Part shown: piece by piece, positions 12,651 to 57,350 of the stretch
Layout of the letters: each line of letters starts with the position of its first letter
How positions within the stretch are numbered: position 1 is the first letter of the stretch
Source: Falciphora oryzae
Taxonomy: Eukaryota > Ascomycota > Sordariomycetes > Magnaporthales > Magnaporthaceae
Length of the DNA: 64,000 nt
Assembly: GCA_000733355.1 (NCBI GenBank)
Contig: JNVV01000068.1
Span: 124,001-188,000, forward strand
Direction: 5' to 3'
Translations under genes and position numbers: made by a program
The notes under the pieces: model-generated
The model's input: the letters and a program-made list of their open reading frames with translations, nothing else
The model's database searches: none
What the model was told of the DNA's origin: nothing

Positions 12651-12670
12651 ATGTTTTGGAGGTTTGGTAG
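12332..12670 (+). other. possible upstream ORF overlapping the SAPS start
   Basis: An ATG-initiated frame of 112 codons begins 319 nt before the SAPS start codon and ends at 12670, 20 nt beyond its first base, in a different frame. If the mRNA includes 12332, ribosomes using this ATG could not reinitiate at the main start, which would lower translation. The peptide (Pro/Arg-rich) is probably not functional. It matters only if the leader is long enough. Confidence 0.3.
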
Positions 12671-15600
12671 CTATGCCAGCGCGTCCGCCATCGACACAAT
12701 CCTGGACAAGCCCGAGTTCACCGTCGAAGAGCTCCTTGACGAGAGCGATTTGATCCAGGAGCTCAAGCAGCACAATGCCAAGCTCCTCGAGCACCTGAGG
12801 CGCCGCGAGGTCCTGGAAAAGCTACTCGACTATGCCGTCGCCCCCAAACTCGAGCCGGTCGCCGTCCCCGACAAGGACCAGGGCGAAGATGACGAGAAGG
12901 GCAAGGCTCTGACTTTTTCTTTCTCCCGCCCGAGGGCGTCGTCGCGCGCGGCCGAGGGCGGCAGCGAGGCCGACGAGGCCGAGAAGCGCCGCAACAAGTA
13001 TGCCTTCGTTGCGAGCGAGATCTTGTCCTGCGAGAACTGGTCCATCTGCGAGGCCATCATGGACGTCCAGAACCGTGACCTGCTGCGCAGCTTCTGGAGC
13101 TTCCTGCAGCGCCCGTCCCCGCTGGACCCGCTGCAGGCCAGCTACTTCACAAAGGTCAACGAGTCGCTGTTCGACAAGAAGACGCAGGAAATGATCGAGT
13201 TTCTCAAGTCGGTCGAGGGCGCCGTTCCCAACATGCTGAGACACGTCGACAGCCCCATGGTTATGGACCTGCTGCTGAAGATCATCAGTCTGGAGCGGAC
13301 GGCTAATGGCCAAGGTATTGTTGAGGTGAGTGCCTATCCGTCATGCAAGCCGAGGCTCTGTCGGTGATAAGCCGGCCCCTGTGCCGTGATCGCACCTCCG
13401 TTTGCCGCCCTAACAAGACTCTTTTGCCTCTCAGTGGCTCTACACCAAGGATGTTATGCCGTCGCTACTTTCATTCCTCGGCCCCAAACACAGCTGGGCG
13501 ACGCAAACCTCTGCTGGCGACTTCATAAAGGCCATAATCACCGTCTCTGCCAATGCGTCCCAGAACGAGCAGACGTGCATCGGACCGAACGAGCTTACGA
13601 GGCAACTTGTTTCGAGACCCTGCATCGAGCAGCTGATTGGGTACATGCTGGGCGGCGGGAACGCTCTGACGGTGGGCGTCGGCATTGTGATCGAAGTGAT
13701 CCGCAAGAACAACTCGGACTACGATCCAGACGTTGGCGTCGAAGCCAACTCGGTGCCCTCAAGCCGCGACCCGATCTACCTGGGCACCCTGCTGCGCCTG
13801 TTCGCCGAGAACGTGCCGAAATTCATGAACCTGATAATGGCTGGTCAGGGTCAGAAGCCACACCTCGAGTCTACCTTTGGCGGCAAGATCCAGCCTCTGG
13901 GATTTGACAGGTTCAAGACTTGCGAGCTTATGGCGGAGCTCCTTCACTGCAGCAACATGGGTCTGCTCAACGAGGTTGGATCCGAGGACCTGATCGCGGC
14001 TCGAGATGCCGAGCGCCAGCGACTCAGGGCCCAGGGCAGCTTGACTGCTGTCCGCGGAGAGGAGGCGCCGTCGAGCGCGGAAGATCTCACGATGAGGATC
14101 CCCGGGGCTTCGCCTGCGGACGAGGTTAGGCGCCTCGAGGTAACTAACATTTCCGACGACGACGGCTTCGAGGAGGTCATTGGCGCTGCCGAGATGGCCG
14201 AGGATACCTCACACGAGTTTGTCAAGGCTGAGGAGGAGATACAACATGCGCTCCCGACGTCGTCCTTCCTTGATAAGGACGAGGATGACTTCGTTGACGA
14301 GCCCCTGAGCTCGCCGCGACTTAATGTTTCGGACACTAAGATGGAGGATCATCAGTTCGAAGACCCGGAAATGGTGGTCGAGCCGCTGTCGCCTAAGAAG
14401 CAGGCTATGCCGGACGCGCCCCCCGCCGAGTCCACCAGCACCGCCGACCCCACAAGCGTCACAACCACGATTAAGGAAATCGAGGAGTTGGGGCTTGGCG
14501 ACGACCAGCTCGAAGGGAGCTTGGGCGTTGCGTCGGGTGGCCACGTGGAGAAGCGGTCTGCCAGTCCCGAGGCCGGCTCTTCGCCCCCATCATTCGCAAC
14601 TCATACGTCATCTGTCTCCGAGGCACAGTCCGCGATTACTCCAGAGACAGACAGCTCTTCGCAGGCTGAGATGACAGCTGCGGCTGTTGTAACGGCCTTC
14701 GAGCCCCATCCTGAGGATACGCCAGCCCCGCTCTTTTCAAGTTCTTCAAAGCAGCCCGCGGAGGCTGAAGCCAAGGTGGCACCCACGGTTGCGACATCTG
14801 CTGCTGACTCTGACAAGCTTGGGGCGGACTTCAAGGGTGATGCTATGGAGACGGATGAGCCGACCAAGGCTGTAACTGCTGAGGGCTTGAAGAGCCAAGA
14901 CAAAGAGGGTGGCGAGGCATCCGACGCTGTTCCTGCCCCGGAGACCGAGACGCAAGCAGCTTCCGAGGACAACAAGGTCACCCCTGTCGTCGGCGACTTC
15001 CTGAAGATGCAATTTGTGGAGCACCGTGTTGTGCCGACTATACTGGTAAGAGCCGTCGATGGTGTCACGGGTGTGCTCGTTGCTGACTTACGGTATCATA
15101 GTCATTCTTCTTCACGTACCCCTGGAACAACTTCCTCCACAACGTTGTGTATGACGTCGTCCAACAGGTCTTCAACGGCCCGATGGACCGAGGCTACAAC
15201 CCAACGCTGGCCATCTCGCTGTTCGAGGCGGCCGACATAACTGCGCAGATTATCAACGGTCAGCTTGCTAGCGAAGAATCCGAGGCCAAGAACAAGACGC
15301 GCATGGGCTACATGGGGCATTTGACCCTGATTGCTGAGGAGGTTGTCAAGTTCAACGAGCGCCATCCGCCCGAGCTTCTGTCTGAGACAGTGCTCGAGAA
15401 GGTCATGTCGCCCGAGTGGAGCAACTACGTCGAGGGAGCGCTGGCCGAAACGAGGGAACGTGATAACGCCATCCTGGGTGGAGTAAGGCCTGAGGTCGCT
15501 ATGAACAACCGCGCCGCTGCTCAGGGCAGTGGGCTCGCGGCTGCCGGCCTCTCGAGCCTCGGCTCCGCCCTGGGCGGATCTCATGGCTCGTCGGCGCTTG

Positions 15601-18468
15601 CAGACGCTGGTCTCAATGGAGGCCTGGATCTGCAGGAGAACGGCGGAATGGCCCAGTTCGCCATCAGCTCGGGCACGGTGGGGGGCACGTCAGGCTTCGG
15701 CAGCTCGAGCGACGAGGACGAGGATGAGGAGAATGACGAAGACGTTAACAACGAGGTTAGTCACCCCTTCCACAGCGGTCAGACGAACGCCCCTATCTCC
15801 TTTAGTAGAGGTCATTTTGTATGCTCTTCGAGTTTTTATCGGTACATTGGGGCGGAGCAGGGTGGGGAGGATTCAGTCGCGTCCCATGAGTCTCGCGCGT
15901 GGCTGCGGGGTTTGAGTGGATCTCGCAGTCAGCTCAGCGATGATATGTTTGTGGGTTCCGACGAGGACGAAGATATGGAGGATGTGGATGGCGACAAGTA
16001 TGTCGCGCATTACTACAAGGGTCAGTGGCTCTCTCTACCACAGTCCAAGGTCGGGGACACGCCGGCGATGGAGCAGGCACTGGCGCGCATGGATCTAGGC
16101 CGCCCGCTCCTTAGAAGAGGGCTCAGCGCGCAATTTCAGCGTGTTTGTGGCGGTGGTGGACCATGCGAGGACCACGAGGACTCGGCCGACGGCAGCACTA
16201 CCCTCGCCGGCATGAGCGAGATCGGTCCCGTCGATTGCCAATCTGGACTGGACTTGGATCGAGACGACGGCACGAATGCCCTGCACACCGCCGGTTGCGG
16301 GTGCGACGATCAGGACATCGGCCACGACGAGCCGGACTTTGCCAGCGTTGGTCGGTGCGGTCAAGAGCATGTTCCTGCCAAGGATCATCTGCAGGCCCGC
16401 GTGGCCAGCGGTGATGGCCCCAAGCTGCTTCCGCTTCTTCCCAACGGCATGCCGAAGCGTGCTGCTCGCAGCCCCTTTGCTAGGGCTCGATCAATAGGAC
16501 GTTCCTTCTTCGCCTTGGATTCCATCGACGATCAGGACACCGACCACACTTTCCACGCGGATGGGGAGAAATAGAGCTAACGCTAGACAGGGCTGGGGTG
16601 GTCCGTAGGTTTCATCGGGGACAAGCGTGGCGTGGCAGGGAAGGCGGTTCGACTTGACAAGGCGTTTTGGGATGGGCCGGAACCTATGAGGTTTTGTACT
16701 GTGATTATGGAGTATGGTTGGAGTATTGTATGACGAAAGAGTCGGAATCAGCTCATTGTTTGTGTCAGGGGCAGCGTGGCCGCAGAGGACCCAGCGTGAG
16801 ATCCGAGGAACGACAGGAGAGGGGTGGCCGATACCAGGCTGGCCCGCCAGGCTTGGATCGGACGTCCCGCCCCTTCTCCTTCCTCCCGTGTCTCCCTTTG
16901 TCATCCGGTGGTGGGATATCGGAGTGCTGTGGCCGTGTTTCCGTGTTGCCGTGCAGCGAGGCGGTGTGCACGTGCAAACAGCGGCAGTTCAGTGTTGTTC
17001 GGTGTGGTTGGCTAGCGGCGGCATGGATCCATCGTCCCTGGAACGACCCCGACGCAGCGACCCGAAGTCTCGACCCGACGAATCCGCCCGAACTGGTCCC
17101 CCGGCCGCCCGATTTCCCTGGCCATGGCAACCCCGGGATTCGCTGTTGTTATTATTGTGTTTTCTCTGTTCTAATGCGGCGCGAGGCTCGCAAGGCGACC
17201 TTACTGTGGGACGAGTGTCCCTGCGAATTTCTCTGTTTCTGTTCCGCCACTTCAGGACTAACGACGGCCGAGGATTCCTACAAAGTATTTCTAACTAACG
17301 TGAATGTCGCGTTCAGTTCCGAGCGTACACAGACCCGTTGAACTCGTCTACATCGTTGAATCCGCCATCCGTACCGCCTCCACCACCTCCGCCGCCGCCG
17401 CTGAACATACCTCCGTCGCGTGCGCGCCTCCAGCTCGCCGCACGCCTGGCGATGAACAAACGGAACACAACAGGCACGGCTGCTGATTCGAGTACGGCCG
17501 AGGGCGCTAGCTCTCAAGAAAACGGCACGGTGCCATTCGCATCAGGGAGCCGGCCGAGTTTTGACGGTAGTGTCGACCCGGACAGCCCCGAATCGGCCCA
17601 GCTTCAGCCAGCCGCGCCGCTTGCGGAGAGGCTGCGTGATCCATTTGCGGACGACATTGACGACGACGATGAGGATGATTTGATCCCTGGAGGCGGATCG
17701 GATGGAGCGGAAGGCGACAAGGCTACGGGCTCGGGCTCACGTTGGAACCGCGGCAACTGGTGGCGCGGGGTGGTGCGGAGCAAGCGGCCAGGCGAAGGCG
17801 ACAGCACGAACGAGCGCTTCGGGGACGGTAGGGACGACGACAGCGACGACGATGACGACAACGACGACGACGAGGAGTTTGGCGACTTCGCCATGCCCGA
17901 GGTCACGGATCCGCCGGTGCGCGCGTCGGACGGTCCCGTGGGCGCCCTCTTCGATCATGAGCGGGAGAAGGTGCTGCTCAAGCCGCTGCCCGTGCACCCG
18001 CCACACTCATCTGGGGGCAAGTTTGGCAGCCTCTGGCCGTTTGACGGGCTCGGATTTGGGTCGACCGGGTCGGGATCTTCGGCCGTGGGCTTGGTCGCCG
18101 GCCTCAAGAGTGGCGGCGGCGTCGCCACGGCCCAGGCTGGCGCCGCTGCGGGCGCGCCGCTGGCGCCTCCCAAGGACGATGAAGCCGAGGGCAGGCTCAG
18201 CGCCGCCTCCCCTGCCACAGCGAGCCCCGTCTCGCCCTTGTCCATGCCCGGCAACAAGATGGCTACTATCGACACCACGGTCGCGGCGGCGCAGGGCGGG
18301 CCGCCTCCTGCAAAGACCGAGGCGGAGGCATCGACAGCTGCGGCTGCGGCTCCTGCCGACGACGAGCCAGTCATTGTGGACGAGGACGGCAAGAGGGTGT
18401 CGAGGGCGAAGGAGGCCAAGAGGCGCACGAGCATCGAGGATCCAGAGGATGAGGAGGTCGTCGTCTGA
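12651..18468 (+). CDS. SIT4 phosphatase-associated (SAPS) family protein
   Basis: The start is in a near-perfect context (GCCACCATG). Exons 12651-13325, 13435-15045, 15102-15755 and 17317-18468 give 1,363 residues. The N-terminal half is the SAPS helical repeat region, opening MFWRFG and containing ILDKPEFTVEELLDE and the LLRLFAENVPKFM and HCSNMGLLNE segments. A long acidic, Ser-rich linker follows, then a second SAPS block (residues about 763-930) with FFTYPWNNFLHN and TRMGYMGHL. The C-terminal exon carries a proline run, LNIPPSRARLQLAARLA, acidic runs and the terminal AKRRTSIEDPEDE. Yeast SAP155/185/190 bind the PP2A-like phosphatase Sit4 and act in G1 progression, TOR and ion signalling; a similar regulatory-subunit role is inferred. 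The first two introns are ordinary (109 and 56 nt). The third is exceptionally long and partly open, so the model between 15756 and 17316 is the uncertain part. Confidence 0.88.
15756..17316 (+). other. 1,561-bp putative intron of the SAPS gene
   Basis: The donor is GAG|GTTAGT and the acceptor is preceded by TTTCTAACTAAC and ends GTTCAG, both good fungal signals. Splicing joins ...DVNNE to FRAYTDPLN in frame, which matches my memory of SAPS homologues. The sense frame stays open from the donor to a stop at 16574 (272 codons) and includes an acidic stretch resembling the neighbouring exon (SDDMFVGSDEDEDMEDVDGD, about 15934-15993). The interval may therefore hide an additional exon, an alternative C terminus, or an inserted or decayed sequence. 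The remainder, 16575-17300, shows nothing recognisable. Confidence 0.55.
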
Positions 18469-22322: not shown

Positions 22323-23685
22323 ATGAGAAAGAGGCCACAGGAACCCGACGCCCAGGGGGGGTCGGATGCGGCCGCCCGGGCGAGTGTGCGCACAAACATG
22401 GAAACCCCGTCGCTACTCCAGAGGATGGCCTACGCCTCTTGGATGTATACCACGCAAAGCATCATCTCGAGTTTCGTGTGGTTCCATGAGTGGAAAGAGT
22501 GGTACTCTCCGCCAGATGGCCGCCCGGATATTGTCAAGGCCTACGACTGTCGCCCTTACCTCCCCGTCCGGTAAGCTCTACCTACCCTCCCGGGCGACGA
22601 CCTGAAGCATGTGTAGCTGGCAGGCAGGCAGACGAGACCGCCCATACTGACCTGGCATGCGAGTCTTCAGCTTCTTCTTCCCCGCCTCTCACGACCTGTC
22701 TTCCCCGACCCCGCTTCCGACCCTTATCACGATCCATGGTGGCGGCTTCTGCATCGGCACGGCACGCGACGCGGACGAGTGGAACCGCGACTTCGCCAAC
22801 AAGCACAAAGTCCTCGTCATCTCGCTGTCTTACTCCAAGGCGCCCGCCTCTCCATTCCCCGGAGCGCTGCACGATCTCGAGGCCGTGTACGGCGCCGTCA
22901 TGGCCGACGAGTCCCTTCCCATCGCGCGCGCGGGCAGCACGACGGGCGGCGCCGACGGGCGCGCGCGCATCGCGATTCTGGGCTGGTCTGCGGGCGGCAA
23001 CCTCGCCCTGTCGCTGTCGCAGCTGCCCAGCGTGCGGAACTCGCCCCGCGGCGCGCCCTCGGCCGCCGTCACCGTCTACGGCGCGCTCGACCTGGCCACC
23101 CCGCCCGCGGCCAAGACAAAGTCACGCGTCTACAAGGTTAAGCTGCCGCCGCCGCGCAACCAGTGGGCCGACTCGCTGATCCAGCTCGCGCCCGTCTTCG
23201 ACTGGAGCTACGTCCCCTACGACCAGGACCTGCGCGACCCGCTCCTCAGCCCCGCCTTTGCGCCCGAGGCCGCCCTCCCGCCGTACGTGTGCGTCGTGGC
23301 CTGCGAGCTCGACATGCTCGCGCACGAGTCGTGGCGGCTCGCCGTCCGCCTGGCCAACGAGCGCTTCGACGTCGGCAGGGACCTGCCGGACGCCTTCGCC
23401 AAGAACAACATGTCCCTGACCTTTGCGGGCCGCCGCGCGCCCAGCCGGCGCAGGGGCGAGCTGGACGAGGAGGCGGGCGGGGACGAGCGGTTCGGTTTCG
23501 AGGACGACGGGGACGGCAAGGGCGTCAAGTGGATGCTGGTGCCTGACGTGCTGCACGGGTTCGACTGCAAATCGATGCGGGAGATGATGGGCGGCGAAGA
23601 GGCCATCAAGGACGCCGAGATGAAGACGGTCCACGAGATTGACAGGATAGGGAGGTGGTTGCGGGAGAAGGCTTGGAAGACCTGA
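22323..23685 (+). CDS. alpha/beta hydrolase, HSL/GDXG-type lipase/esterase
   Basis: Exons 22323-22570 and 22671-23685 (100-nt intron, GTAAGC...CTTCAG, splitting an Arg codon) encode 420 residues. The hormone-sensitive-lipase signature is complete: oxyanion motif HGGGF (residues 105-109), nucleophile Ser189 in GWSAGG, Asp297 in CELDMLAHES and His378 in LHGFD. The N-terminal segment with METPSLLQRMAYASWMY (from residue 26) is a plausible cap or membrane-associating region. No classical signal peptide, so probably intracellular. It should hydrolyse a carboxylic ester or lactone whose identity cannot be read. A polar insertion rich in Arg, Asp and Gly (residues about 340-365) lies between the Asp and His of the triad. 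An alternative start is Met26 at 22398. Confidence 0.87.
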
Positions 23686-26600
23686 AGCGACTTGGAGTAG
23701 GAGAAATTTGGGTTGGGATGACGCCATGATTTCTCTCCCTCATTTTTACTATTTGACCCCTTTCCACACTTCGCCCGATTTTGATCACAACACCTATCGA
23801 GGCACCTTTCTTTCCAATGCAAGCAAATGAATACGCCCAATTCGGCCTTACCGTGGCTTTTTAGGACATTCACTATCGAATCTTCCGGATACATGCATTT
23901 GCTCTAGGATACGACGCTCGAGGAGCACAGCAGCCTTGGCACTTTGGGTGGGAGTTTAACCAAATCCGTATTGCCAAACAGGGACATAGACGTCAAGGTA
24001 AAAGAACCGTGGCTGCGGGGGCACGGAGCGTATACACTTACCACAGGTGATAGTGCCGCCTTGGTTAGTATTGTTTTCATGTGGCAGATCTTTCCAACTT
24101 TGGCAGCGACATGGAAAACCATAATTCTGACGCCGACTCCAAGGGCCAGAGCCCCAAGGCGTTTTCCGTGCTCCTCGCCAGCCTGGTGCCCAGCAGCCTC
24201 TGTGCGCGCGGCTTCTTCAGCCACACTATATCACCAGCCTTGCTGAGGGAGGATTGTTCTATGAAAGATATCTAGGTAGGCAGACTGGCAAGCGAGCCAG
24301 CTTGTTGGTAGCACATCTACCAACACAATGGCGAACCAACACACAACCGCAAGCAAATTCAGCAGCAGACCAACAACCAGCAAGCTCCCGGTATCCTATC
24401 ATATTACCTATGAGAATATTGGCCCCCGTGTCGCTTTACACGGGGTCGGATTCACGTTGCTCGATTGCAAGTCGTAAAAACCGAAAGTGACTGATCGCCC
24501 CGATATTCTATCTTTGGGCGATTAGACATCATTCGTTTCGCACAGAAAACAGCTCACACCATGGGCAGTATTCCGCCGCGACTGGCCATTTATTTACTGT
24601 ACTATTAGTCCGGGTTCTTTTTTGGACGACACATTAGTGCGTGCGCGAATACGCTCAGCCGCTCGGCCCGAAGCCTGGGTCGTTGGAAGGGCAAGTGACA
24701 TTTTCACAACGTCGAAACAAACGGCGACATGCCTCCAACCACGGCATCCTTTGGAAGTTTAGCTGCGGGCAACCCACATCCCGTTGGATTTCCCATGCAG
24801 GCTTTGCTTGCTGAGCCTCCGTCACTCCGGCCTCCTGTCAGACTTGCAGGATTCCCGACGTGGCACCGGCATACAGGGTTTAGCTTCACGCCCATGCGTC
24901 ACGCGCTCGGCCACTCCCCTGTCGTCTCCCGCTATTTTGATGTCTCTTCAAGTTCCAGAAGCACTGAGAACGAGCCGTGCAGGTATTCTGTGGGGTCGAC
25001 GACCTACGGGGGGCATGGAGTGAGAGCTTACGACGTTGCGAAACCGCAAGCCTAAGCGCTATAATGGCTGCTGATTGTCGTGATCGTAGTGCTGATTAGG
25101 CCTTTTGCCGTCGGACGATGCCCACCTCTTCTGGATCGTGGGGTCAAGTGGTATTTTGGGGAGGGCGAGCTGCCCGTGCGCGTTTGGCACCATCACAAAC
25201 CAGGAAACCAGGAAGTGATTCGGATACGCTGCGGAATGGTGTTGGGTCGCCATGAGCACGGGTTGCTTCTTCTGTTCTATCTGCCCCTGATGGCATCCAA
25301 ATCCGCTGTGCTCACGTCTCAGCGGCTGGGTACATTGCTTCGCCACGGACTTTGGATTGATCGAGACTTTGGCCGAGGCACACGGAAATATGCAACCGTT
25401 GGATTCCGGGGGGCTTCGACCGCGAACATACTCTGTACCATCCGAGCACCTTTTAGCCGAGTGAGGATTGCCTTTGTGCCCCGTCCTGTCCCGGAGGAAT
25501 CTGCATACACATCGGATCGGTGTCCTGGGTTATTTCGTCTCAAAAAAGGTCTGAACCACGCATTCCACCACCACAGGGCTTGCGGCTTGTTTGCCTCCTT
25601 CCATTGGAGGCAAGTGCTTGAAGGCGTAGTGTTACTTCATCCCAAGTGTGGCAGTCTATATGTAGAATCCTATAGGGGCGTAGGCAGGACTTCATGCGGA
25701 ATCAGGCGCGGGGTAGGCATTACGCCCGGCGAGATTCGGGCTCCTGGGGGAAGGCGATATGCCGGGGCTAGCGGGGGGGTTAAGCGAGGTTGTAACCCGT
25801 CTCTTTCAGTCAGGAACACATGGTTCTACCCGCACCTCCGAGACGGCGCAGAGCGCTGGCGTCTTCGATCGCGGGGGGGTTTCGAAGTGTGTGGAGGGTG
25901 TGCAATCGCCAAAGAACGCACGACGAAGAAATTACGGAGGGGAAGTGGTGGGGGTGTTGGATGCCATGATGGTGTGGACTGCTTCAAAACGGGCTTGCTC
26001 TCGGAGCATCCAGTCACGCCAGCGCATCTCAACCAGTACCAATTGACGGTAGGTGAAGGAGACGGTGTGTGCCAGGTGGCCGAGACGCGTCTTCTCGGAT
26101 CCATCGCTGAAACGAGTGGCCACGCTTACTGCAGGTGGGGGCCAGCCTTGGGAGCTTACTCTTGCTACGCCACACGGGGAGGCTTGAGGATGGCAGTTGA
26201 GCTGCTGGCCAGTGCGGCCGACCCCACCCTCTCACTGTGCCGTAGTTATCCAAAGTCTATTGCTTTTGCTGTGCTTGTGCAATGCAGATCTCCTGTTTGA
26301 TTGTCATGGAAAATTGTCATGGAAAAAGCTTGGTAGCCTCAGGGCTCGATCCAAATGCCACAACGCCCAACGCCTATTATTGCCTGCAGTCTCTAAACTA
26401 TCCAACCTGCTGGAGGTGTGCCGCGCGGAAGTGAAAGGGAAAAGAAACATTCCTAGGAACTAGACGGCGGTAGCGTGCAATCGTCTCGAGGAAACATAGC
26501 ATAAAACTAGACTTCAAGCTCATCGAATGCGAATCAGGTTTGCCTAGCACCGAGCTTCAAAACTGCTGACTGAAAAAGAAGTCACCTTTCACAGGAGCTG

Positions 26601-27963
26601 GTTTCTAATTCTATTTGGGGAGATTTTGACCTGTAAGCTTCCGTCTTCTTGATACGTAGCGTGGCATTTCCAAGTGTTTAACGTATTTTTGTCCTGCGGG
26701 CGTCCATTGATCACACTTGAACTACGCGTCGGGTTGCTCGCAACTCGACCACGACGCGATTCACACACGGCTGTCAATTTGGGACATGCACTTCTGAGAG
26801 ATGCACCGTGCGGGAAGCAACCACAAGCAAGCAAGCTTAACCGCTCACGGTTCTGCCCCACGGCTGGGTCCTGCCAACATTGCGTGCCGGCGCTGATTGG
26901 CCACTTTATTCTCCGAAAGTGCCCAGTTTACCCAGATTCGGGCTAGCCTGGTTCCTTTTTTAAAGACGGTTGCACTGCACGGGTGAGGCCCGCTCTTTCC
27001 TTCAGCGCCCTGGCTCAGCCCCGCTGCCCTGAAGCGAACCGATGGGGCCACGGCTGCTGCTCACGCTCTCGATTGACTCGTGGGGTGTGCACCCGCCGTC
27101 TCCTTTGTGTTTGGCATCTTTCGAAAGAGGGGCCGCTGGGTAAACGACGCCGTCTGATCACTCGCCCTGCCCAGGTTGGCACGCAGGCAATGCCATTCCA
27201 ACTTTCGGGGCAGCGCGGCCGTCGGCTTCATGCGACGGCGCTCCTCTCGTCGCATCTTCTTCCCACCGCCCGTCGGCGTTCCCCAGCCCTGCGCTTCGGA
27301 CGCACGCATCCATTCCCGCCTATTGCCTGCCTTAGCTCGCTGCCAGCGCAGCAGCAGCAGCGGCAGCGGCACCGACCAAATCTGTCCGCGCGCCTGGCTT
27401 CGCCCCGGCCGCTGGCTGTCTTTTTGAGTTGGCCCGAGAGGCTGAGCCCAGCCGGCCTTGGCCCTGCTGGACGCTACATTGACTGCCGCGTAGCGAGGGG
27501 CCGGCCATGTCTGAGGAAGCTTACGGGGCTCTGTGGCCCCCCCTCCTCCGCTGGAGCGTTACTACTGTCCAGGATCCCAGGAATCCCGCTCTGTCCGGCC
27601 CCAGGCGGCGTCCGACAGTGGATCTCACTCCAACATCCTGGCGTCGCCGTTGCCTGACCCCCGGCTCGCGGATGACACGTCCTGGGGCGGCGCACATCGT
27701 ACATGATGCCTTTTGATCCCACTGCTGGCCCACCGCCGCACCGTTTCTCTCTCTCTCTTGTTTTCCTTCTCTCCCTTTTCGGTCGTTTCGTCAATCCTAG
27801 GACTTTCCTAGTTGGAAGCTATTCTTCTCCTTTTGTTATTTTCGGCCTCCTTCGTTGTTGATACCCATGGCTTCTTCTCTCGTTGGAGGACTGTGAGAAG
27901 CATCTACTCTCGTCCTTTTCTTCTTGCTTCTGTTTTGTTCCTTTCAGGATACGATACCATTTT
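23686..27963. other. long intergenic region with no convincing gene
   Basis: Over 4 kb. The longest frame (25080-26300, plus) is treated separately as doubtful. Other frames are short. 27061-27716 is open in several frames at once, typical of GC-rich non-coding DNA. From about 27730 to the gap the plus strand is strongly T/C-rich (TCTCTCTC, TTTCTTCTT), as expected of a promoter and leader for the large NRPS-like gene. Confidence 0.5.
25080..26300 (+). other. doubtful 406-codon open frame
   Basis: This is the longest unassigned frame. Its translation is rich in Arg, Gly, His and Cys, lacks recognisable motifs, shows no hydrophobic core pattern, and has no promoter or conserved start context. 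Similar long spurious frames occur elsewhere in the window on non-coding strands. It is recorded so that it can be tested, not as a gene. Confidence 0.15.
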
Positions 27964-28214
27964 NNNNNNNNNNNNNNNNNNNNNNNNNNNNNNNNNNNNN
28001 NNNNNNNNNNNNNNNNNNNNNNNNNNNNNNNNNNNNNNNNNNNNNNNNNNNNNNNNNNNNNNNNNNNNNNNNNNNNNNNNNNNNNNNNNNNNNNNNNNNN
28101 NNNNNNNNNNNNNNNNNNNNNNNNNNNNNNNNNNNNNNNNNNNNNNNNNNNNNNNNNNNNNNNNNNNNNNNNNNNNNNNNNNNNNNNNNNNNNNNNNNNN
28201 NNNNNNNNNNNNNN
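27964..28214. other. assembly gap (251 N)
   Basis: A run of 251 undetermined bases lies 24 bp upstream of the chosen start of the NRPS-like gene. Its true length may differ. Missing sequence could hold promoter, leader or an additional N-terminal exon. Confidence 0.99.
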
Positions 28215-28238
28215 CATGCCGGCGGGAAACACATCACA

Positions 28239-31200
28239 ATGGACTATTCACTGCAGCCACTGGGCTCACCGAAGCCCCAGCTTCCCCGCATCGACACGAC
28301 AAACTCATGGGACGCGCCCGACGTTATAAGACCAGAGCCGCTCGAATCCAAGCTAGTATGGGCCATCGCTCATGTTCTGCAGCTCGATGCCAGCTCTATA
28401 CAGGTGATGGACTCTTTTCAAGACCTGGGCGGCGACCAGCGCACAGCCACCCTTCTCAGGAGGAAATGCAGGAGTCTCGGCCTGGATGTCAGGATAAAAG
28501 ACATCCTGAGCTGCGTTACCATCGCCGAGCTGGAGACGTGCATAAAACCATGCAGGCGTGACGATACACTAACACCGGCCGACGCTTCGGCATCCCCTAA
28601 CCCGCTGCAACTCCGACCCCGCAAGCCGAGCCGGTTTTCGTACGCCAGCGATGCCTCGACGTTGCACTCGCGCAACTCCAGCACATCAAGCGCCGTGCTC
28701 TCGGCACCCGCAGTCGAGATCGATGTCGACAAGTTCATAAGCGACGACAAAGCCGTCGAGCGGTCGGCCATTATAAAGCCCCGGGCGGGACCCTTCGACG
28801 GGAAGGGGGTCGCGTTCCTTGTGCTTCAAGACATCGAGATCCCGGGGAGCCCTGCATCGGACGTCGAGGTCATTCCGCAAATCCACATGTTCCTCGCCGG
28901 AACCAAAGTCGCCGCAATCCGACGCAGCCTCGAGGAGGCAGCCAGCGGATGCGAACTTCCCGAAGTTTGGATCGTGCTTAGGAAGATCCCCACGACCGAG
29001 ACTGGCGAGGTTAACAAGAGGAGGCTACGGACCTGGATCCAGAATGTCAACGACGAGACTCAGCAACAGATCATGAGCATGGACATCGAGGAGGCCGCGC
29101 AAGAGCCTTTGACTGATATTGAGAAGGCGCTGCAGGGAGCTGTCAGCAGGGCGCTTCAGATGCCCGTTGAGAACATTGGGATGAACTTCTCCTTTGCACA
29201 ACTCGGCGGCGATGACATCAGCGCCATGCAGGTCGTGGCAATGGCCAAGGCCGATTCCATCTTTCTCAACCCGTCCGAGATTCTGCAGAACCACACGCTG
29301 GCCCAGCTTGCGAGGATCGCCTCGGCGCGCGCCGAACCCTCTCGGCGCTGGGACGGCACGCCTCTCAACAGTGGATTCGAGCTCTCGCCGATGCAGAACC
29401 TCTACTTCCTGACGGCGATGGGCGGCGACTCAACCCATCGTTCGGTGCGCGACGGTAGCTACCGCTTTAACCAGAGCATTCTCCTCAGGATAAGCAGGAA
29501 TTTCGGTCTCGACGACGTTTCAGCCGCGGTAGAAGCCGTGGTAGGACACCACGCGATGCTCAGATCTCGTTTTTCGAAGGCCCCGACGGGCGCATGGACC
29601 CAGCGGGTTGTTCCTGCGGCTGCCGGCTCCTACAGCCTGTGCTTCCACACCGTTAGCACCGACAAGGAGCTCCAGGCCATCATCGAAGAGAGCCAGACCA
29701 TGGTCGATATAGAGCAGGGGCCTGTGTTTGTCGTGGACCACGTCCAGACCAACGACGGGCACCAGATGATCTACCTGGTGGCACACCATCTGGTTGTCGA
29801 CCTGCTCTCGTGGAGAGTCATCATCCAGGACCTGGACGAGCTCCTGACGAACGGCAGCCTACTGTCCCAACGGTCCCTGCCTTTCCAGCAATGGAACCAG
29901 CTCCAGAAGCGCGAGATCGAGCAGACGGACATCAGCAGCCCAATCCCGACCGGTACCCCTGCGGGAAACTACGCCTACTGGGGCCTGCAGGACGCCCCCA
30001 ACACCTACGCCGATGCGCGCGAGGCCAGCTTCTGCCTGAGCCCCGAGCTGACGTCAATACTGCAGACGACTTGCAATGCAGTTTTCCAGACCGAGTCTGT
30101 CGATATCTACCTGGCCGCCCTCCTCCTATCCTTCTCCCAGACTTTCCACGACCGGCCGGTTCCCGTTATCTGGAACCAGGAGCATGGCCGTGAGGTCACC
30201 GACCCGACCATTGACATAACCGACACTGTCGGATGGTTTACCAGCCTGAGCCCGATTGGTTCAGTGTTGGAGCCCGGAATGAATGATTTCCTGGATGTCC
30301 TGCGGCGGCTCAAGGACCTGCGCCGGGCGATGCCGAGGAGGGGAGCGCAATACTTTGCCTCCAAGTTTTTCAACCGCAACGGCCCGGACCTGTTCACCGA
30401 AGACTGGCCCATCGAGCTGATCTTCAGCCACGCGGGGTCGATGCAGCAGCTCGAGCGGGAGAACGGCGTCCTGGAGCAGCTCACAATCCCGGGCAGGACG
30501 CTGGCGTCCAAGACTTCGGACATTGGTCCTAGAGTCGGCCGCATAGCTCTGTTCGAGGTCAACGCTGTGATCTCGCGAGGCTCGGCCAAGATCAAGCTGC
30601 TCTATAACCGACAGTCGCAGCACCAGGAGCTCGTTGCCCAGTGGGTCGAGAACTTTGAGCACCTTCTGCTTGAGGCCATCGGCCGGCTGCGCTATCACAC
30701 CCCGGAGCTCACCTTGGCAGACGTGCCGCAGCTTGATGTGACGTATGCTGGACTGGAAAAGCTGAACAAAGACCGCTTAGCCGGTCTCGGCCTGAACAGC
30801 GTGCGCGACATCGAGGCGGTCTATCCAGTCACTGCAGTCCAGCAGGCCATTCTTATCAGACAGGAGAGCGTCCCCGAATCGTCGCAGCTCCACGGTATCT
30901 ACGAGCTCACCTCGGCAACCGGCGAATCCGTCGACATTTCCCGACTGTGCGCGGCGTGGCAGAATGTGACGGTGAAGCATGCGGCGCTCCGCACCATCTT
31001 CATCGAGAGTGTTACCGAGACGGGCGTCTACGACCAGGTCGTCCTCCGCAAGTGCTCACCGCACATGCTGTTTATCGACGTCCACGCCGGCGAGGATCCC
31101 ATCGAGGCTCTCAATAACCTGCCCATGGTCCCGGGCGGGACCTCCCGTCCGCAGCATAGGTTTGCGGTCTGCAAAGCCCCAACCAAAACGCTGGTCAAGC

Positions 31201-34200
31201 TTGATATCAACGAGGCGTTGTGTGACGCCCAGAGCATGAACGTCATCTTCGTCGACGTCCGCCGCGCCTACGCTTCGAACATGCCCCTGCAGGACGCCAC
31301 GGGCCTGACTTACCCCGAGTACCTCAAGTTCCTCGAGACGGCGCGCACCAGCCAGAGCCTCGATTTCTGGATGCACCGACTCAAAGACGTCGAGCCCTGC
31401 ACATTCCCGCGCCTTGTCCTGCTCACAAACGAGCAGCGCTTCTACGAGAACTCGCACTTCGACCTTGAGATCGACGCCAAGACGTTCATGGACTTTTCGC
31501 GTGCGAACCAGGTTTCTGGCGACGCAGTCTTGCGCCTCGCCTGGGGTCTCGTGCTGCGGGCGTTTGTTGGAAATGACAAGGTCTGCTTCGGCTACCGCGC
31601 CACTGGGCGAGAGGCTGTATCGGGTGGACCCAGCATGCGCAACGCAGTCGGCTGCTTCGGCAACACTATCGTGTGCAACCTGACACTGTCCCCGTTCAAG
31701 TCACTCTCATCGATGCTGAGGACTGTCGAGTCGGAGTACGTCGCCAGCCTCCGCCACCAGCACGTCTCTATCCCAGAGCTCCACCACGTCCTCGGTGTTC
31801 GGGGCCACGAGCGCTTCTTCAATTCGTGCGTTTCGCTCACCCACGAGCCGGCCGAGCTGAACAGCCGCTTCACGACGCAGACCAACTTTGAGCTCCACGG
31901 AGTGTCGCACCGCGAGACTTCCAGCTTCGACCTGGCTATCAATGCCCGCTTCATGAACGGCAGTCTCGTAGTTGACATCGCAAGCAACTCTCTGCTTTCG
32001 GAGCGTGAGGCAAGGAACGTGTCTAACACACTGAAGAAGGCGCTCAATGCCATCTTGGAGATGCCTAGCGGCTCTATCGAGGGCGTTGACCTCTTCACCG
32101 ATCACGACTATGCTCAGGTCGTGGCTTGGGCCAACGAGAGGGATACTCCTCAGCCACGCTCCGCCGTGGTGCACGAGCTTGTGGAGAAGAATGTCCGCGA
32201 GAGCCCCCAGGCGACCGCGATCTGCGCGTGGGACGGCGAACTCACCTACCATCAGCTCGACGACCTCGCCTCCCGCCTGGCGCTGCGCCTGATTGATGCC
32301 GGCGTCGGACACCGCGACACGGTGCCTCTCGTTCTAGAGAAGAGCTTCTGGTCCCCAGTGGCCATGCTCGCGGTACTCAAGACGGGCGCTGCCTTTGTTC
32401 CCATTGACGCGTCCGACATGGGCTTCATCCAGCCAATCTTCGAGCAGCTCAACTCGTCACGTGTCGCTATCCAGTGCCAGAACGCGTCGGCCGTGCTGGG
32501 TAACCTCTTCGAGAGAGTCATTATCCTGAACGGCGAGCTTTTGAGGGAGCTCCAGCTTCAGCCGATGCGGCCCATAGTGACGCACACGTCTGAGGAGGAT
32601 ACCGCCTGCGTTTTCTTTGTGCCCGCGTCGTCTAAGCAGGTCAAAGGCATCGCCTTCTCGCACGCCTCTATGTCGATGGCGCTACTGACGCAGGGCCCCG
32701 CAGCCATGATCTCGGCCACAAGCAGGGTCATGCAACTGTCGTCCTACAACGTGGATATTGCACTCTCCGAGGTCTTCGCGACCCTCATCCACGGAGGGTG
32801 CGTCTGCATCCCCACCGACTCGGAGCGCGTCCTCGACTTCACCGGGGCGGTGCAGCGCATGGAGGTCAACTGGTCCTACATGACGCCCTTGCTCTCGCGC
32901 AAGCTCAACGTCGACATCCTGCCGACTCTCAAGACCATCTGCTTCCGCACGCGATCCCTGGACGAGGACTCGTACGCGCCGTGGGCTGGCAAGAAGAAGG
33001 TGCTTTTTGCCTACGGTGCCCCGGATATCTGCCCCCTGGGTATCTCGTTCCTCGAAGTGTTTGGCACCCACCAGCTTAACCGCATCGGCGGTCCGCTCGC
33101 GGGCAACTTCTGGATTGTCAACCCTGACGACCACCGTAGGCTGATGCCTATTGGCGCCGTCGGCGAGCTCGTCATCGAGGGTCCGACTCTGGGTTGCGAC
33201 TTCCGTAACGGCCAGGTTGACCAGACGCACTGGAACGCTGCCGAGTTCTCGACCGGCGGCCCCAACAGGAAGACCCGGTACTTCAAGACGGGCCACCGGG
33301 TCCGCTATACCGAGGGAGGCTTCATCCAGATCATCTCGAGCAAGAAGGAGGATCTTGAGATTGGCGGACACACTATCGTCGTCTCGGAGCTGGAGCAGCA
33401 CATTCGCCGCAGTCTCGGCCTTGGAGTGGACGTTATTACTGAGGCGATTGCGTTCAAGGGAGCCCAGGTCGAGCCTGTGCTGACTGCCTTCGTCGAGCTT
33501 GGCGAGATGTTCGATGGGCCTGAGGATCTGCATCGGCTGTCGCGCACGACCCGTGAACGCCTCTTTGCGGCACGGCGGCTTGCAGAGACAGGTCTGCGCA
33601 ATGCGGTGTCATCGTACATGATCCCGCAGATCTACCTCCCTGTGAAGCACCTGCCGGTGACGGCCTCGCTCAAGGTCAACCGCCGCAAGCTGCAGAAGAT
33701 CATCCATGGCCTCTCCCGGGAGCAGCTGGTTGCCCTTTCGACGGTGCCGAACCCGGGCGAGGTGCAGCGGTACTGCATGAAGCCGCTCCCGCTGAACCAG
33801 ATGGAAGAGCGGATGCGTCAGATCTGGGCACACGTGCTCAACATTGAGGATGAGACCGTTATCAGCGGCGGAGACGGCTTTATCAAGGCTGGTGGCGACG
33901 ACATCCTTGCTACTAAGCTGCTCGTCTGCTGTCGTCAAGAGGGCATCATCATCTCGATCGCAGATGTGCTCCGCAACATCACTCTCTCCGAGCTCTGTAG
34001 GACTGTGAAGTTTACTGATGATGCGCAGCAGGCGCACGCCCAGGCTCATGCGTCCTCGCACTCGGCTCAGATCTCCATGTCATCTGTTGTTTCGGCCCCG
34101 ACTGCAGCAGCCACATATCCCGAAGATGCACAGCATCAACAACAGCCTCAGATGCAGCAGCAGCGGCAGTCGAGGAACAGCATTGCCGCAGTGCCTGCTG

Positions 34201-36009
34201 CCGTCGATCCGTCTCAGCAGCCCAGGAGAGGTAGCAACGGCGATGATCTCGAGACGGTCCTTGCCACCAAGATCGGCGTCGACAGGGCCACGGTCAGGGA
34301 GGTTGCCGAAGCCTCGTCGATGCAGGCTCGCTTCATCGAGTCGGGTATGCTTCGCGGGCGTGCCAACATCAACTACTTTGTCTTTTCCTTCTCGGGCACT
34401 GTCAACTACAAGAAACTCGAGGACGCATGCCAGACGCTGGTGACGATCCACCCGATCCTTCGCACCGCGTTCGTGCCTCACAAGCGCCGCATGTACCAAA
34501 TTGTGTTCAAGTCCAGCGCGGGCGCCACCTTCAAGCGCTACCTCTGCCCGAGCTGGCGCCTGGCCGCGTTCGCCGAGAAGGTGATCAAGAAGGACCAGGC
34601 GGCGCCGCTTGCCTTCGCATCGCCCATGACCAAGTTCATCCTCCTCGATGGCGGCAAGCAGTCGACGCTTCTGCTGCGGCTGTCCAAGGCGCAGTACGAC
34701 GACCTGTCGGTGGCGCTGCTGGTCAAGGACCTCAAGAAGCTGTACGACGGAGCGCAGAACCCGCCGCGACGGCCGTCGTACGTCGAATTTGTGCGTTCGG
34801 CGCAGGCGGCCAACTCGAGGGGCGCACCCGACTATTGGCGGTCGCTGCTCGAGGGCGCGTCCATAACCAAGGTGGTGCAGCACGCGCGGCCGTACCAGCT
34901 GACCAACCACAGCAAGACCATCAAGCAGCGCGTCACGGTGGGCTCGCTCGCGCACCTCGAGATCTCATTCGAGACGGTCATCAAGTCCGCCTGGGCCATG
35001 ACGCTGGCGGCGCTGTCGGGCTCCAGCGACATCGTCTTCGGCGAGATGGTCGACGGCCGCCAGATCCGGCTGCCCGGAGGCCAGTCTGTCGCGGGCGTGC
35101 TGGGCCCGACGGCCAACGCGGTCCCGGTGCGAGTCAAGTTCCCCGACCGACAGATCGCGCCGCTGGACCTGCTCAAGTCTGTTCAGGCGCAGCGCGTGGC
35201 CGGCATCCAGTTCGAGAACTTTGGCTTCCTCGACTTGGTGCAGTCGTGCACAACGTGGCCCTACTGGACCAAGTTCAGCACCATCGTGCATCACCAGTAC
35301 GAGGAGACGACGGTGATGCCATCCGAGGCCAAGCTCTTCAACCTCGGCAAGGGCGGCGCCGGTCCCTCGTGCAGGTTCACCATTATCGAGAGCCGCGCCC
35401 AGGACGTGCCCGACATGTACGTGCACTCGCTCGCGCGCGGCGGTGGCGGGTCCGGCCCCGGCAGCCACACGAGCAGCGTCGAGGTGTGCATCACCTTCTG
35501 CGAGAGCCGCATCCCTGTTAGCTTCGCCGAGGAGACGCTCCGGATGCTCGTTGACAACGTGGCTGCCTTTACGTCTGCCTCCATCACGGCTCCTCTCGTG
35601 CCGTCGTCCTCGGAGTTCCAGAAGCTCAAGGCGCAGATCCCGCTGCCGCAGGCACCGTCGACGCCGAGCATGGTTGCCGGCGACCTGCACGCCGTACCCA
35701 ACAGCGACGTGGCTCCCAACCACGCCGCGGCGATTCGCAAGGCCGTCGAAAAGGCCTGGACTTCGTCGTCGCTCAACCCCGCGACGCTCAATGTTCCTGA
35801 GCAGCACAGAGACCACGCAGCCTTCTACGACCTGTGGGGCTCGCTGATCCCAGCGTCGCAGCTGGCCTCAGCCCTGACCCGGGAGGTCCCCAAGCTCGGC
35901 CTGCCTGGGATCGGGGGACCGGGAGAGTTTTCCGTCTCGATGGAGGAGGTCTTGGACAACCCGACCATGGCGAGGCAGTTCAACCTCATCGCGAGGAAGA
36001 TGGCCGGAC

Positions 36010-36044
<35 letters not shown>

Positions 36045-36998
36045 GCACACAAGCGCAACGTGTCTTCGTCGTCTCACCACTCGATATCGCTTCCGCGCTC
36101 GTCGCTCGTGTCCAAGATAGCGAGCAAGATCAAGGGTCACGACCAGCTACCGCCGGTGCCTCCGACGCCTTCCTTCGTCGTCGACTCCCACGCCACCGCG
36201 GAGAATGTCCGGACTCCTCCCCGTTCAACGCGGGACGGGGCCCTGCCGACACCGTTGGCGGTCCCGGCATCCTCGATGCTCACGCCCGGCCTGCTGGTCA
36301 ACACACCCGGCGCACCCACGCCTCTGGGCGCATCGTTCACGGGACCGCTCCGCGACGACGACGAACTCGAGCGCCAACTGGAGCGGGCGCTGCACGAGAT
36401 CTCAGGCGAAGCGCAGGTGCGACCGCAGGTGCGCAACGAGTCGGCCGAAATGCGCCGCGGCGGCAGCTCGGGCGGCAGCAGCGGCATGGAGAGCCTGACG
36501 GACGGCAGCAGCGCTGTCAGCAGCGGCGCCCCCGAAGACCTCGAGCAGCACACTGTCTTCCCGGGCATGGTCCCTGCGAGCTACGGCGGCTTCTCCTACA
36601 TCGGCACACCGCGCAAGGACAGCACCGTCAGCGCCCTCACGCCCATCTCGCCTCCGACCCCCGGCAGCAAGCAAGGTCTCTCAGCCATGACGCCCACGCC
36701 TATCTCGCCGCCCACGCCGGCCATGAAGCAGAACGCGTACTACCACCAGCAGCACCATGCGCAGAGGCAGCAGCGCTACAGGCAGAACCGGCCGGCGGAC
36801 CTCAACATGTCGCTGGCGAGGCCGCCGCTACCGCCGATCCCGGCTGATGAGGTGCCGGACGACGTGGTCTCCCCCGTGACTCCACCAACGAACAGCACCC
36901 GCTACTTCGATCGGGCGCACCGGCGCGGCGACTCGTCGCTCGTCACGCCGCTAGTCACCCGGGCCCCGCGGCACTTTCGCAGCTTCAGCCGGAGCTAA
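28239..36998 (+). CDS. NRPS-like megasynthetase with degenerate active sites
   Basis: One uninterrupted frame of 2,919 residues, starting at ATG 28239 (CACAATGG) just after an assembly gap. Domain order: carrier (about 20-90), C-terminal part of an adenylation domain (155-265), carrier (280-350), epimerization-like domain (365-800), condensation (855-1290), adenylation (1310-1800), carrier (1830-1915), condensation (2000-2445), carrier (2505-2575), then a low-complexity tail. Every carrier lacks the phosphopantetheine serine: LGGDQ (Gln67), LGGDD (Asp326), AGGDD (Asp1888) and LWGSL (Leu2536). The first condensation motif reads NEALCDA (991-997) instead of HHxxxDG, and the second reads SKAQYDD with Lys2150 for His. 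The adenylation P-loop is PASSKQVKG (1462-1470) and the YxTGD motif has become FKTGH. The epimerization domain keeps HHLVVDLLSW (516-525) but has Gln647 where EGHGR is expected. An intact frame this long suggests a retained non-catalytic role, which is inference. Confidence 0.9.
36012..36042 (+). repeat. (AGC)10 microsatellite inside the NRPS-like gene
   Basis: About ten AGC triplets encode a run of ten serines at the start of the low-complexity tail. Being trinucleotide, length changes keep the frame. The downstream tail also has short SPPTP-type repeats. Confidence 0.9.
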
Positions 36999-53681: not shown

Positions 53682-56600
53682 TCACGCCGAGGTCCATCTC
53701 TCAAGCCACCTACTCAGAAACTTGCGGACATACCCGTCCTCGATCATGCGCGGCGGCTGCCGTAGAACCGCTGCGTCTCTCGGTCCTGCCTTGGTCTCGA
53801 AGAACACGCTGCCGACCCTTCGCGCCGCCTTCTCCCCCTCTTCGCCTACCACCCCGAGGCTCCCGCCAAACTCCTTCTCGTAGAACCCGATCAGCTTCAC
53901 CGCCGGGTTGCGCACCTCCTCGCCACCACGCGCCGCGCTCTCGCGCAGCCTCTCCAGCCAGGTGCGCGGAGGCACGGCCTCGAAGTCCAAGCCTGCCGCC
54001 CTCAGCTCCGCCAGCAGGTCTGACCACGCGAACTCGTGCGGATTGACCATGTTGTAGAACACGGGCGGTGTCTGCGCGTCCACCTCGCGTGGGAGTGGCG
54101 CGGCTGCCAGCGTCTGTGAGAGCTGGAGGATGGCCGTCGCGAGCGTGTCGACGGGAAGCCAGGAGCAAGCCTGTGAAAAAGAGGATTTTGCTGATGGTCA
54201 ATCATGCATCCAAGTATCGCGGCGCCCTCGGTCAAAACCCAAGCGTCCCCATGCTTTCATACCTGATCTAAGCTCGGCAGCACCCCAAGGGTTAACGAAG
54301 AGCGTATCATGGCCGGGAGGAACTCGGCCTCATTCCAGATCCCGTTCTCCGCATCGCCCACAACCTGGCCGATGCGCAGGACGTAGCTGCGGGCACCTCG
54401 CCGCGCCGCGTTGAGCACCAGGTGCTCGCCCACGAGCTTGCCCTGCCCGTATCCCATGTCGGCCGCGCTGCGAAGGTCCTCGAGCGGCCCGTCCGGCACT
54501 GGTGTTGTGCTGCTGTTGGACGCGGCCGAAATGGAGGAGCAAAAGAAGAGCCTCGCCGGCTGCCGGTCCTGCCGTCCGTGGGCCGCGTCGGTCGAGAAGC
54601 GCAGAAGATTGCTCAGACCGCGGATGTGCGGCTCGAAGCTGGCCAGCTTGATGTTGAAGTTGACCGGCCATGCGACGTGCACAATCAGCGTCACCGTCCT
54701 CAGCATCTCGGCTGACAGAGCGGCGTCTTTGACTCCGAGAAGGTCGTTGCTATCTTCGGCACTACCGAGGTCCGCCATGTGGGCTGAGACCTTGGCCGTG
54801 GCTGTCCCGTCGAGCTTGAGTCCACGCTGCGCAAGCGACTCTCGGACTCTGCCCATGGGGTTTGCGCCCCGGACGAGGCAGTATACACGTCTCACATCCG
54901 GACTTGAGGCCATCCGATAAAGGGTGTGCGCGCCGAGAGACCCAGTGGCGCCGGTGAGAAGCTAAACAAGAAAACGCCATGCATCAGTCTCAGAGTCTTC
55001 AACCAGGTGCACGACCAGCGAAACTTACCACCGTCTCGCCCGCGTCCGAGTACTTGTTGATATATCGCCGCATTAGGTCATATCCGTCAACATTCGCATC
55101 GTCATTACCATAGGCTTCCGCATCTGCAGAGCTGATGGAAGTGCCATCAGGGGTCGACCCGTATTCGTCGCTGCCACTGCTGCTACTGTCACCGACAGTG
55201 GTGGCCCTGGCACTCTCCTGTGCAGCCACCAGAGTGTGCAAGTGCCGCGCAAGCCGCCCAGCGTTTTGGCAGTCGTAAATCACGTTAGCCCCAAGCGCCG
55301 AGCCCGAGAGCCCCAGAGCGCGCTGTAGCGCACGCCGCATCTGTATTGCGCGCAGGCTGTCCACCCCGGCCGCGAAGAAGTCCGCATCGGCCGACGGCAG
55401 CGGCCGCCCCACGACGTCGCGGAACACGCCGGCTACCGCCTCCTCCACCTCGGCGAGGTTCTTGAACGAGCCGTCGCCGCTGCTCCGGCTGCGCGAGGAG
55501 ACGTCCGCCACCTTGGTGGTGCTTTCGACGTCTTCGCCGCCCAGGAGCCGCTGGTACAGCGCGTCGATCTCGGGCGCAAACTGTGCGTAGACCTGCGCCC
55601 TGATGATGCTCCCCTTGTCCGTGCGCGGGTACGCGGTGCCCACGGGCAAGACGGCGATCATGTCGCGCGTTATCTGGGAGAAGCCCTCGGCGCGCGAGTT
55701 GGCGTCAGCGACCGACGGCCAGATCCTGTCGAGGTACGCCTCCTCATCGCCGTCGTCCTCGGAATCGGCTCGGAACACGAGCAGGCCCGGCACGGGCCTG
55801 TCGACGCCGACGACGACGGCCTCGCACACGAGCGGGTCCTCGCGCAGGCGGCCCTCGATGGGCAGCGGCAGCACCTTCTCGCCGTTGACGAGCGTGACGC
55901 GGTCGTCGAGCCGCGTAACGTACTTCCACGCGTCCGGCACTGTCGGGTGCGGCCGGAACACGTCCTTGGACCGCCAGGACCCGGGAAGCGGGTCGTCAGA
56001 GTTGGCGGCCGACAGCGCCGGGTGACCTTTGAGGTAGACTGCCTCGAATAGACCGTCTCTCGCCGGAGCCATGTGGATGAAGCGCCGGATCATCGGGTAG
56101 AAGTGGATGTAAGCCCACGAGTCGTCGTGGAGCTCGCGCTCTTCTATCGTCTCGCCGGCAAGGCCCGCTTCGGTACTGAGTAGCCACGACGGAACATATC
56201 CCCAACCACGTCAGTGTCACTTTAACATGAGCTTTTTTTTTTTTTTTTTCCTTTACAGCCTAGATCTACTTACGTCCCGATCATGTTGCGAAGGTTAACA
56301 CCGGCCTGGACGAGCCGGTCCCCCAGCTCGTCGGGGGTACGCGCGCCCGCCGCCTTGACGTAGACACAGCGCCGCAGCAGCTCCACGCCGCGGGGCTTCT
56401 CGGCGATAAGGCCGAGGGCGTATGGCACGATATGCACCGCCTCGGGGCGCGCCGCCTCGACAGCTCTGACCAGGCCGTCGGCGGTCAGGGGAGCGGCCGC
56501 GCTGTACAGGTATGCCGTCTTGCCGCGGTACATGGCCTGGAGCGCTGTCGAGATGCCGTACAGGTGGAACCACGGCAGAGCGCCGAAATTATGGACACCG

Positions 56601-57350
56601 GGGCTCTGGAGCGGGTGTGTCAGGATGGCGCGGTGCGAAAGCGTCACGGGCTTCGGTAAACCGGTTGACCCGGACGAATGCATTATAATAGCCGGCCGGG
56701 TCCGCTCGGCGTCGGGGTCGAAGCTACGCTCAAAGCGCGGTTCGTCATTGGAGGCGAGGTCGTACTCGTCGCGGGTCGGTATCGGCATCGTTATCAGCTC
56801 TGGGTACTCCTCGCGCGTGCCAGCTACGGACGCCTCGATGTTTGCTCCGCCCCCGTGTACGATGTGGCGGCAGTCGGTCTGGCGCAGCAGGTTGGTGATG
56901 GCGACGGGCGCGATCCGCAGGGAGAGGGTCAATACGGTATACCCCAGCCTGCTGAGCGCGAACAAAGCCACGGCAAAGTCGACATCCGAAGGGGCGAGGA
57001 GCCCGATGACCTTGTGGCCGTTCTGCTCATGAGGAAACATCCCACAAACCGTCAGTCAAGGCCTAACTGCAGCAGACTTGTGCTAGCGGGTACGTGGCAA
57101 TGGCGAGAGCCGGCGTCCTTACGGGCTCTAACCCCCGGGCCATAAAACGTTTTGCTGCCACATCGACGAAGCAGTCCAGCTGCTTGCCGGTAATGAGTTC
57201 GTAGTCATCGATAGTGCCTGGTCGAGGGTAACCAAGGATCGGCACGGGCGGGTCGTCGGTTGCGCGGTGACGAATTATGTCGTCGAACACCTTTAACTCT
57301 CCATACTCCTCATACACTCTCTTGATATGTTCGTCTGTCAGCTGAGACAT
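53682..57350 (-). CDS. NRPS-like A-T-R carboxylic acid reductase
   Basis: Five minus-strand exons (57350-57123, 57022-56274, 56175-55029, 54961-54263, 54170-53682) encode 1,103 residues. Introns are 100, 98, 67 and 92 nt, all GT..AG. The order is adenylation, thiolation, reductase. The adenylation domain has an intact P-loop, SSGSTGLPKP (192-201), and the GTTEAG motif (about 324-329) reconstituted exactly across intron 2. The carrier has Ser599 in DFFAAGVDSLRAIQ, suitable for phosphopantetheine. The reductase domain begins LLTGATGSLG (709-718), the NAD(P)H Rossmann loop, and has the Tyr879-x3-Lys883 pair in GYGQGK. The enzyme should activate a carboxylic acid with ATP, load it as a thioester and release it reductively as an aldehyde or alcohol. 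The substrate (aryl, fatty or amino acid) is not predictable by eye. It lacks a condensation domain, so it does not form peptide bonds. Confidence 0.94.
56233..56249 (+). repeat. 17-nt poly(T) tract inside an A-T-R intron
   Basis: A run of 17 T on the plus strand (17 A on the coding strand) lies in the second intron of the A-T-R gene, close to its donor site. Confidence 0.95.

Follow-up and report, generated by a model that had tools for sequence, protein, structure and literature searches.

Within a 64,000-nucleotide window of the Falciphora oryzae genome (contig JNVV01000068.1, positions 124,001 to 188,000; contig C68 of an assembly of 50.2 Mb in 123 contigs), a reading frame of 2,919 codons is open from 28239 to 36998 on the forward strand. 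It encodes P0001, a protein of roughly 320 kDa, as estimated by length, that derives from the nonribosomal peptide synthetases (NRPS). Pfam recognizes three Condensation stretches, one AMP-binding stretch and three PP-binding stretches, and every one of these families exceeds its curated whole-protein cut-off, which places P0001 in the NRPS superfamily by descent. Pfam, profile searches and searches of solved structures together give the domain order: carrier T1, a remnant of the C-terminal subdomain of an adenylation (A) domain, carrier T2, an epimerization (E) domain, a condensation (C) domain, an A domain, carrier T3, a terminal condensation (CT)-like domain and a low-complexity tail. Every recognizable catalytic or carrier domain in this array has lost at least one residue needed by the canonical mechanism. 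The sequence supports the conclusion that P0001 is kept without canonical NRPS catalysis. We consider it somewhat better than an even bet that the whole protein is a pseudo-synthetase, its frame and folds kept by selection, and most likely a non-enzymatic binding scaffold.

Two kinds of rows served for comparison: NRPS domains from elsewhere in the genome, and bacterial loci found with an E-domain alignment, of which the best 80 among 566 relatives were used. These loci had been gathered with patterns containing the E-domain HHL motif and TVGWF; the carrier Ser, the C-domain His and the E-domain Glu and Tyr were not part of them. When conservation was counted within the genome, rows had to cover at least 90% (E, A) or 85% (C) of the profile; for the combined bacterial and in-genome count, the limits were 85% (E) and 80% (C, A, T). 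The A-domain comparison comprised 43 bacterial and 8 in-genome rows. Of 61 bacterial A-T stretches, the 43 with the best scores were used. Three pattern matches turned up in viral contigs, none of them a relative.

The phosphopantetheine Ser is present in all 92 carrier rows (76/76 bacterial, 16/16 in-genome), and a survey of carriers outside P0001 in the same genome found it in 20 of 20. No carrier of P0001 has it. T1 (28338..28529) shows Gln67 in this column (codon at 28437), T2 (29097..29306) shows Asp326 (codon at 29214), and T3 (33783..33992) shows Asp1888 (codon at 33900). Each of the three keeps five of the six columns conserved at 90% and has lost the Ser alone. The initial annotation had counted four carriers without Ser; three of these stand, with Gln67, Asp326 and Asp1888 at the Ser column, and the fourth, a possible carrier remnant around Leu2536 (35760..35993), is without profile support. 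We rejected Leu2536 as a carrier site: Pfam finds three PP-binding stretches, residues 2475–2610 match no family at E 10, and the best carrier-profile match within residues 2381–2919 spans 15 profile positions at 0.2 bits and E 0.031. AlphaFold2, run from the single sequence, gives a pLDDT of 48 here, and the likeness to a carrier is by eye only. Between T1 and T2 the core A domain is absent, only the C-terminal subdomain remnant being left (residues 170–280; 28746..29078; profile match 30.2 bits). A missing phosphopantetheinyl transferase was rejected as the cause of the losses, the genome containing two ACPS-type matches, one of them within a 1,665-aa frame.

Both condensation domains have lost their catalytic His. 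This residue of HHxxxDG is found in 92 of 92 rows (77/77 bacterial, 15/15 in-genome); in P0001 it is replaced by Glu992 in the C domain (30813..32117) and by Lys2150 in the CT-like domain (34290..35303). The motifs themselves had been read as NEALCDA and SKAQYDD, and alignment bears this out (residues 991–997 and 2149–2155), with the Asp retained in both (Asp996, Asp2154). By sequence, the nearest solved structure to residues 2018–2355 is the CT domain of TqaA (PDB 5EJD and others), whose SHSQWDG aligns with SKAQYDD, Lys2150 standing for the His and Asp2155 for the Gly. Measured against the rows of the same genome, either domain retains nine of ten columns, the His being the sole loss. In the larger set, the C domain loses 2 of 13 columns, the His and the adjoining Gly, and the CT-like domain 3 of 13, namely the His, the adjoining Gly and one gapped column. 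In leave-one-out controls, intact C rows lose 0 to 7 conserved columns.

The E domain (29448..30713) keeps HHxxxD, as first described, and has lost both the catalytic Glu and the Tyr. The former, present in 77/77 bacterial and 4/4 in-genome rows, is Gln647 in P0001, as the initial annotation had also proposed, and is adjoined by Glu648. The latter, present in the same 77/77 and 4/4 rows, is His731, the Asn-Tyr pair at positions 730–731 having become Ser-His.

Among the features of a functional A domain (P-loop, A5 Glu, A7 Asp, A8 Arg and A10 Lys), that of P0001 (32169..33710) keeps only the A10 Lys, Lys1812. The A5 Glu is Asp1596, the A7 Asp is His1686, the A8 Arg is Ser1701, and the P-loop is changed in six of its eight columns that the in-genome rows conserve; the alignment confirms the eroded P-loop and the change of TGD to TGH that had been noticed at the outset. 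Lys1469 and Asp1506 are retained. Losses concentrate in the motifs, where 18 of 26 columns are gone, compared with 6 of 30 elsewhere in the domain (Fisher p 3.5e-4), with motif ranges that were set from general knowledge after the column list had been seen. In leave-one-out controls the loss is 0 to 3 columns for intact A domains and 10 of 51 for an NRPS-like A domain on contig C67; for that of P0001 it is 20 of 41. AlphaFold2 predicts a normal A-domain fold for A-T3; in the fold searches (50 matches listed), the VIA-align matches mainly span model residues 1–498 and barely cover T3. P0001 thus combines, in the manner of a pseudoenzyme, lost catalytic residues with folds that appear kept, the fold being modelled confidently for A-T3 and judged by sequence for the other domains.

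Could such a protein still be catalytic, with altered chemistry? The E domain might act through its HHxxxD, or the A domain through Lys1812 and Asp1506 on a free substrate. The retention of HHxxxD, Lys1469, Asp1506 and Lys1812 would agree with this, as would the Glu that adjoins the lost E-domain Glu. We regard the proposal as improbable, since the carrier Ser, the condensation His, the E-domain Glu and Tyr and the ATP-binding motifs are all lost together and no thiotemplate step is possible without a carrier Ser by the known mechanism. The pattern within the A domain may leave room for an amino acid sensor: Asp1506 and Lys1812, which by standard numbering would contact the amino acid, are kept, and the nucleotide-binding residues are lost.

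Is P0001 simply a gene in decay? Translation confirms that all 2,919 codons are open, and the earlier argument that a drifting gene of this length should carry stops agrees with simulated drift (20 runs), which produced a mean of 23 stops (lowest 17) at 0.1 substitutions per site and a mean of 57 (lowest 46) at 0.3. At the three codon positions GC content is 0.61/0.45/0.80, with a coding-like pattern in eight of eight segments; in upstream non-coding DNA the pattern is flat (0.57/0.56/0.56). Neither the broken frame nor the decayed coding composition of a pseudogene is therefore found. Synonymous codon use in P0001 correlates with that of C78 (0.97), C5 (0.99), C9 (0.92) and the SAPS-domain gene of the window (0.90). 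If the losses were placed at random among the conserved carrier and condensation columns, all five catalytic residues (three Ser, two His) would be hit with p about 1.6e-4. The five codons concerned each lie at least two base changes from Ser or His; at 0.3 substitutions per site, the chance that five codons are all two changes away is about 5e-7, a value calculated for Ser and used for His as well. With no stops, a coding-like composition and these double-change codons, and with simulated drift bringing stops by the dozen, a neutral pseudogene, whether recent or old, is unlikely.

The most specific version of that idea is a synthetase that was inactivated recently, now drifts without selection and is free of stops by luck. 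It would accommodate the vanished active sites and the core A domain missing between T1 and T2, and the genome contains another, likely NRPS relic. This relic lies on contig C17 (locus L022, C17:479001-486500, about 2367-5290 on the reverse strand) and is 76% identical to C78 over 299 aa. It carries one stop in the 299-aa match, five in a 439-column match and eight in a 967-column match, together with a frame change. For P0001 we rate recent inactivation as very improbable: the five Ser and His codons each require two base changes or more, structural columns are kept beside lost catalytic ones, and drift that deep would have left its stops.

Two further sources of the altered residues were considered and rejected. 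For damage by repeat-induced point mutation (RIP), the TpA/ApT ratio of P0001 (0.47) and the other index (1.21) fall within the values of three intact NRPS genes (0.47-0.59 and 1.10-1.28). Assembly or sequencing error is unlikely, as the changes are in-frame, several involve two bases, and they are spread over 8.8 kb; an NRPS-like gene at 54999-56093 in the same window retains its Ser.

What, then, might P0001 be kept for? The conclusion that it persists without canonical catalysis draws on catalytic residues lost beside kept structural ones, on the absence of stops, on the coding-like composition and on the predicted A-T3 fold. The initial annotation had gone on to propose a non-enzymatic scaffold, regulator or docking partner; retention without canonical catalysis is supported, and these particular roles are compatible with it. 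We infer that P0001 is made, that selection keeps it and that it serves as a scaffold. Because carrier and condensation domains are by their nature built for contact, and because their non-catalytic columns are kept and their chemistry is gone, we favor a binding function, in which the surfaces by which carrier, condensation and adenylation domains formerly docked to one another would now bind partner proteins, perhaps including other synthetases or the carriers of these. The low-complexity tail (334 residues, 2586–2919; 35994..36995) would offer a handle for regulation by proline-directed kinases. This is suggested by its 17 S/T-P motifs, which exceed the mean of 9.5 in shuffled sequences (12 of 2,000 shuffles reach 17). 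A tentative extension, possible though doubtful, is that P0001 represents a conserved ascomycete family of dead NRPS that acts as a signalling scaffold and perhaps still senses an amino acid. Sensing is considered here because the A domain retains Asp1506 and Lys1812 but has lost its nucleotide-binding residues.

Several observations weigh against a maintained pseudo-synthetase. The argument for selection draws on a single sequence. In the E domain the picture is less clear-cut: it has lost 13 of 52 conserved columns, the Glu and Tyr included, and 23 of 92 when the in-genome rows alone are counted (intact E rows in leave-one-out controls lose 6 to 33 of 98 to 125 columns). The conservation of HHxxxD among the bacterial loci is partly due to the HHL and TVGWF patterns by which they were collected. 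Retention of HHxxxD in the E domain and of two A-domain residues that would contact the amino acid makes residual binding or chemistry possible. The correlation of codon use discriminates weakly: a frame shifted by one base still gives 0.85-0.87. A codon-based test of translational accuracy gave a null result, with an odds ratio of 0.95 in P0001 and 0.98 in an intact control, and is uninformative. Finally, the stops and the frame change of the C17 relic may partly be introns.

The 5' end of P0001 may be incomplete as annotated. A run of 251 N (27964..28214) stops 24 bases short of the ATG, and just 5' of this run a pyrimidine tract that closes with CAG forms a possible splice acceptor. Because of these two features, the true N-terminus may be longer and an upstream exon is possible. 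A search of 23685-28238 for further NRPS exons, with six in-genome NRPS and NRPS-like proteins as queries, gave nothing better than E 4.9, and two frames upstream of P0001 have no Pfam match above cut-off; these roughly 4.5 kb 5' of P0001 are without a recognized gene. Within the protein, a Gln/Ala-rich linker (34026..34268) joins T3 to the terminal condensation domain.

Other genes of the window include the SAPS-domain (SIT4 phosphatase-associated) gene at 12651-16574 (+), likely housekeeping and in at least three open pieces. On the other side of P0001, between 39250 and 50621, lie possible metabolic genes: a CMAS methyltransferase (39250, +), a member of the Transferase family (41547, −), a 2OG-Fe(II) oxygenase (45853, +), a CDH cytochrome domain (47668, −) and a member of peroxidase family 2 (49902, +). 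Pieces of an NRPS-like gene of the A-T-reductase type follow at 54257-57040 (−), with AMP-binding, PP-binding (the Ser of GVDSL intact) and NAD_binding_4 domains.

How does P0001 compare with known systems? Among fungal NRPS, the ChNPS6 homologs described by Bushley and Turgeon (2010, PMC2823734) are conserved extracellular siderophore synthetases of the order A-T-C-dA-T-C with one fixed degenerate A domain. A single A domain has degenerated there, whereas every recognizable domain is hit in P0001, whose domain order differs as well and which has no carrier Ser. The same genome contains a 1,894-aa frame on contig C18 (locus L011, C18:40001-49000) that resembles the A-T-C-dA-T-C arrangement of the ChNPS6 type, its degenerate A domain being recognized by eye. 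Unlike P0001, this C18 gene retains the carrier Ser and the condensation His, and because of this the partial degeneration of the ChNPS6 type looks different from that of P0001. Single degenerate domains in conserved NRPS are thus already known; what P0001 adds is the inactivation of every recognizable domain in one protein that still looks constrained.

The multimodular NRPS of contigs C78 and C5, which have E-C-A-T modules, share the order E, C, A with P0001, at 29-34% identity across these domains, and keep the compared catalytic residues, which P0001 does not. Their frames of 5,478 and 8,631 aa (C5:1351001-1370500 and C78:99001-128000; loci L012-L016) have shared domains of up to 96% identity, which points to recent duplication or recombination. 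P0001 might work in trans as the docking subunit of a different synthetase in this fungus, the C78 or C5 NRPS for example, in the way of an X domain. Its closest in-genome relatives are indeed the E-C-A modules of C78 (31-33% identity), and the kept non-catalytic carrier and condensation columns would suit such a role; C78, C5 and P0001, however, reside on separate contigs, and we think this arrangement rather unlikely. The X domain of bacterial glycopeptide NRPS is a non-catalytic condensation fold that recruits oxygenases. It shares with P0001 a condensation fold without catalysis and differs in being one domain of an active synthetase, P0001 being a whole inactive one.

A general precedent for the pseudo-synthetase that we favor comes from pseudokinases and other pseudoenzymes, several of which have experimentally known functions although their catalytic residues are lost and their fold is kept. 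Pseudokinases differ from P0001 in fold; the loss of catalytic residues with the fold kept is common to both. Should orthologs share the losses described here, genes of this kind would be misjudged wherever genome mining labels them biosynthetic, and non-catalytic scaffolds would be seen to arise from NRPS folds as they do from kinases.
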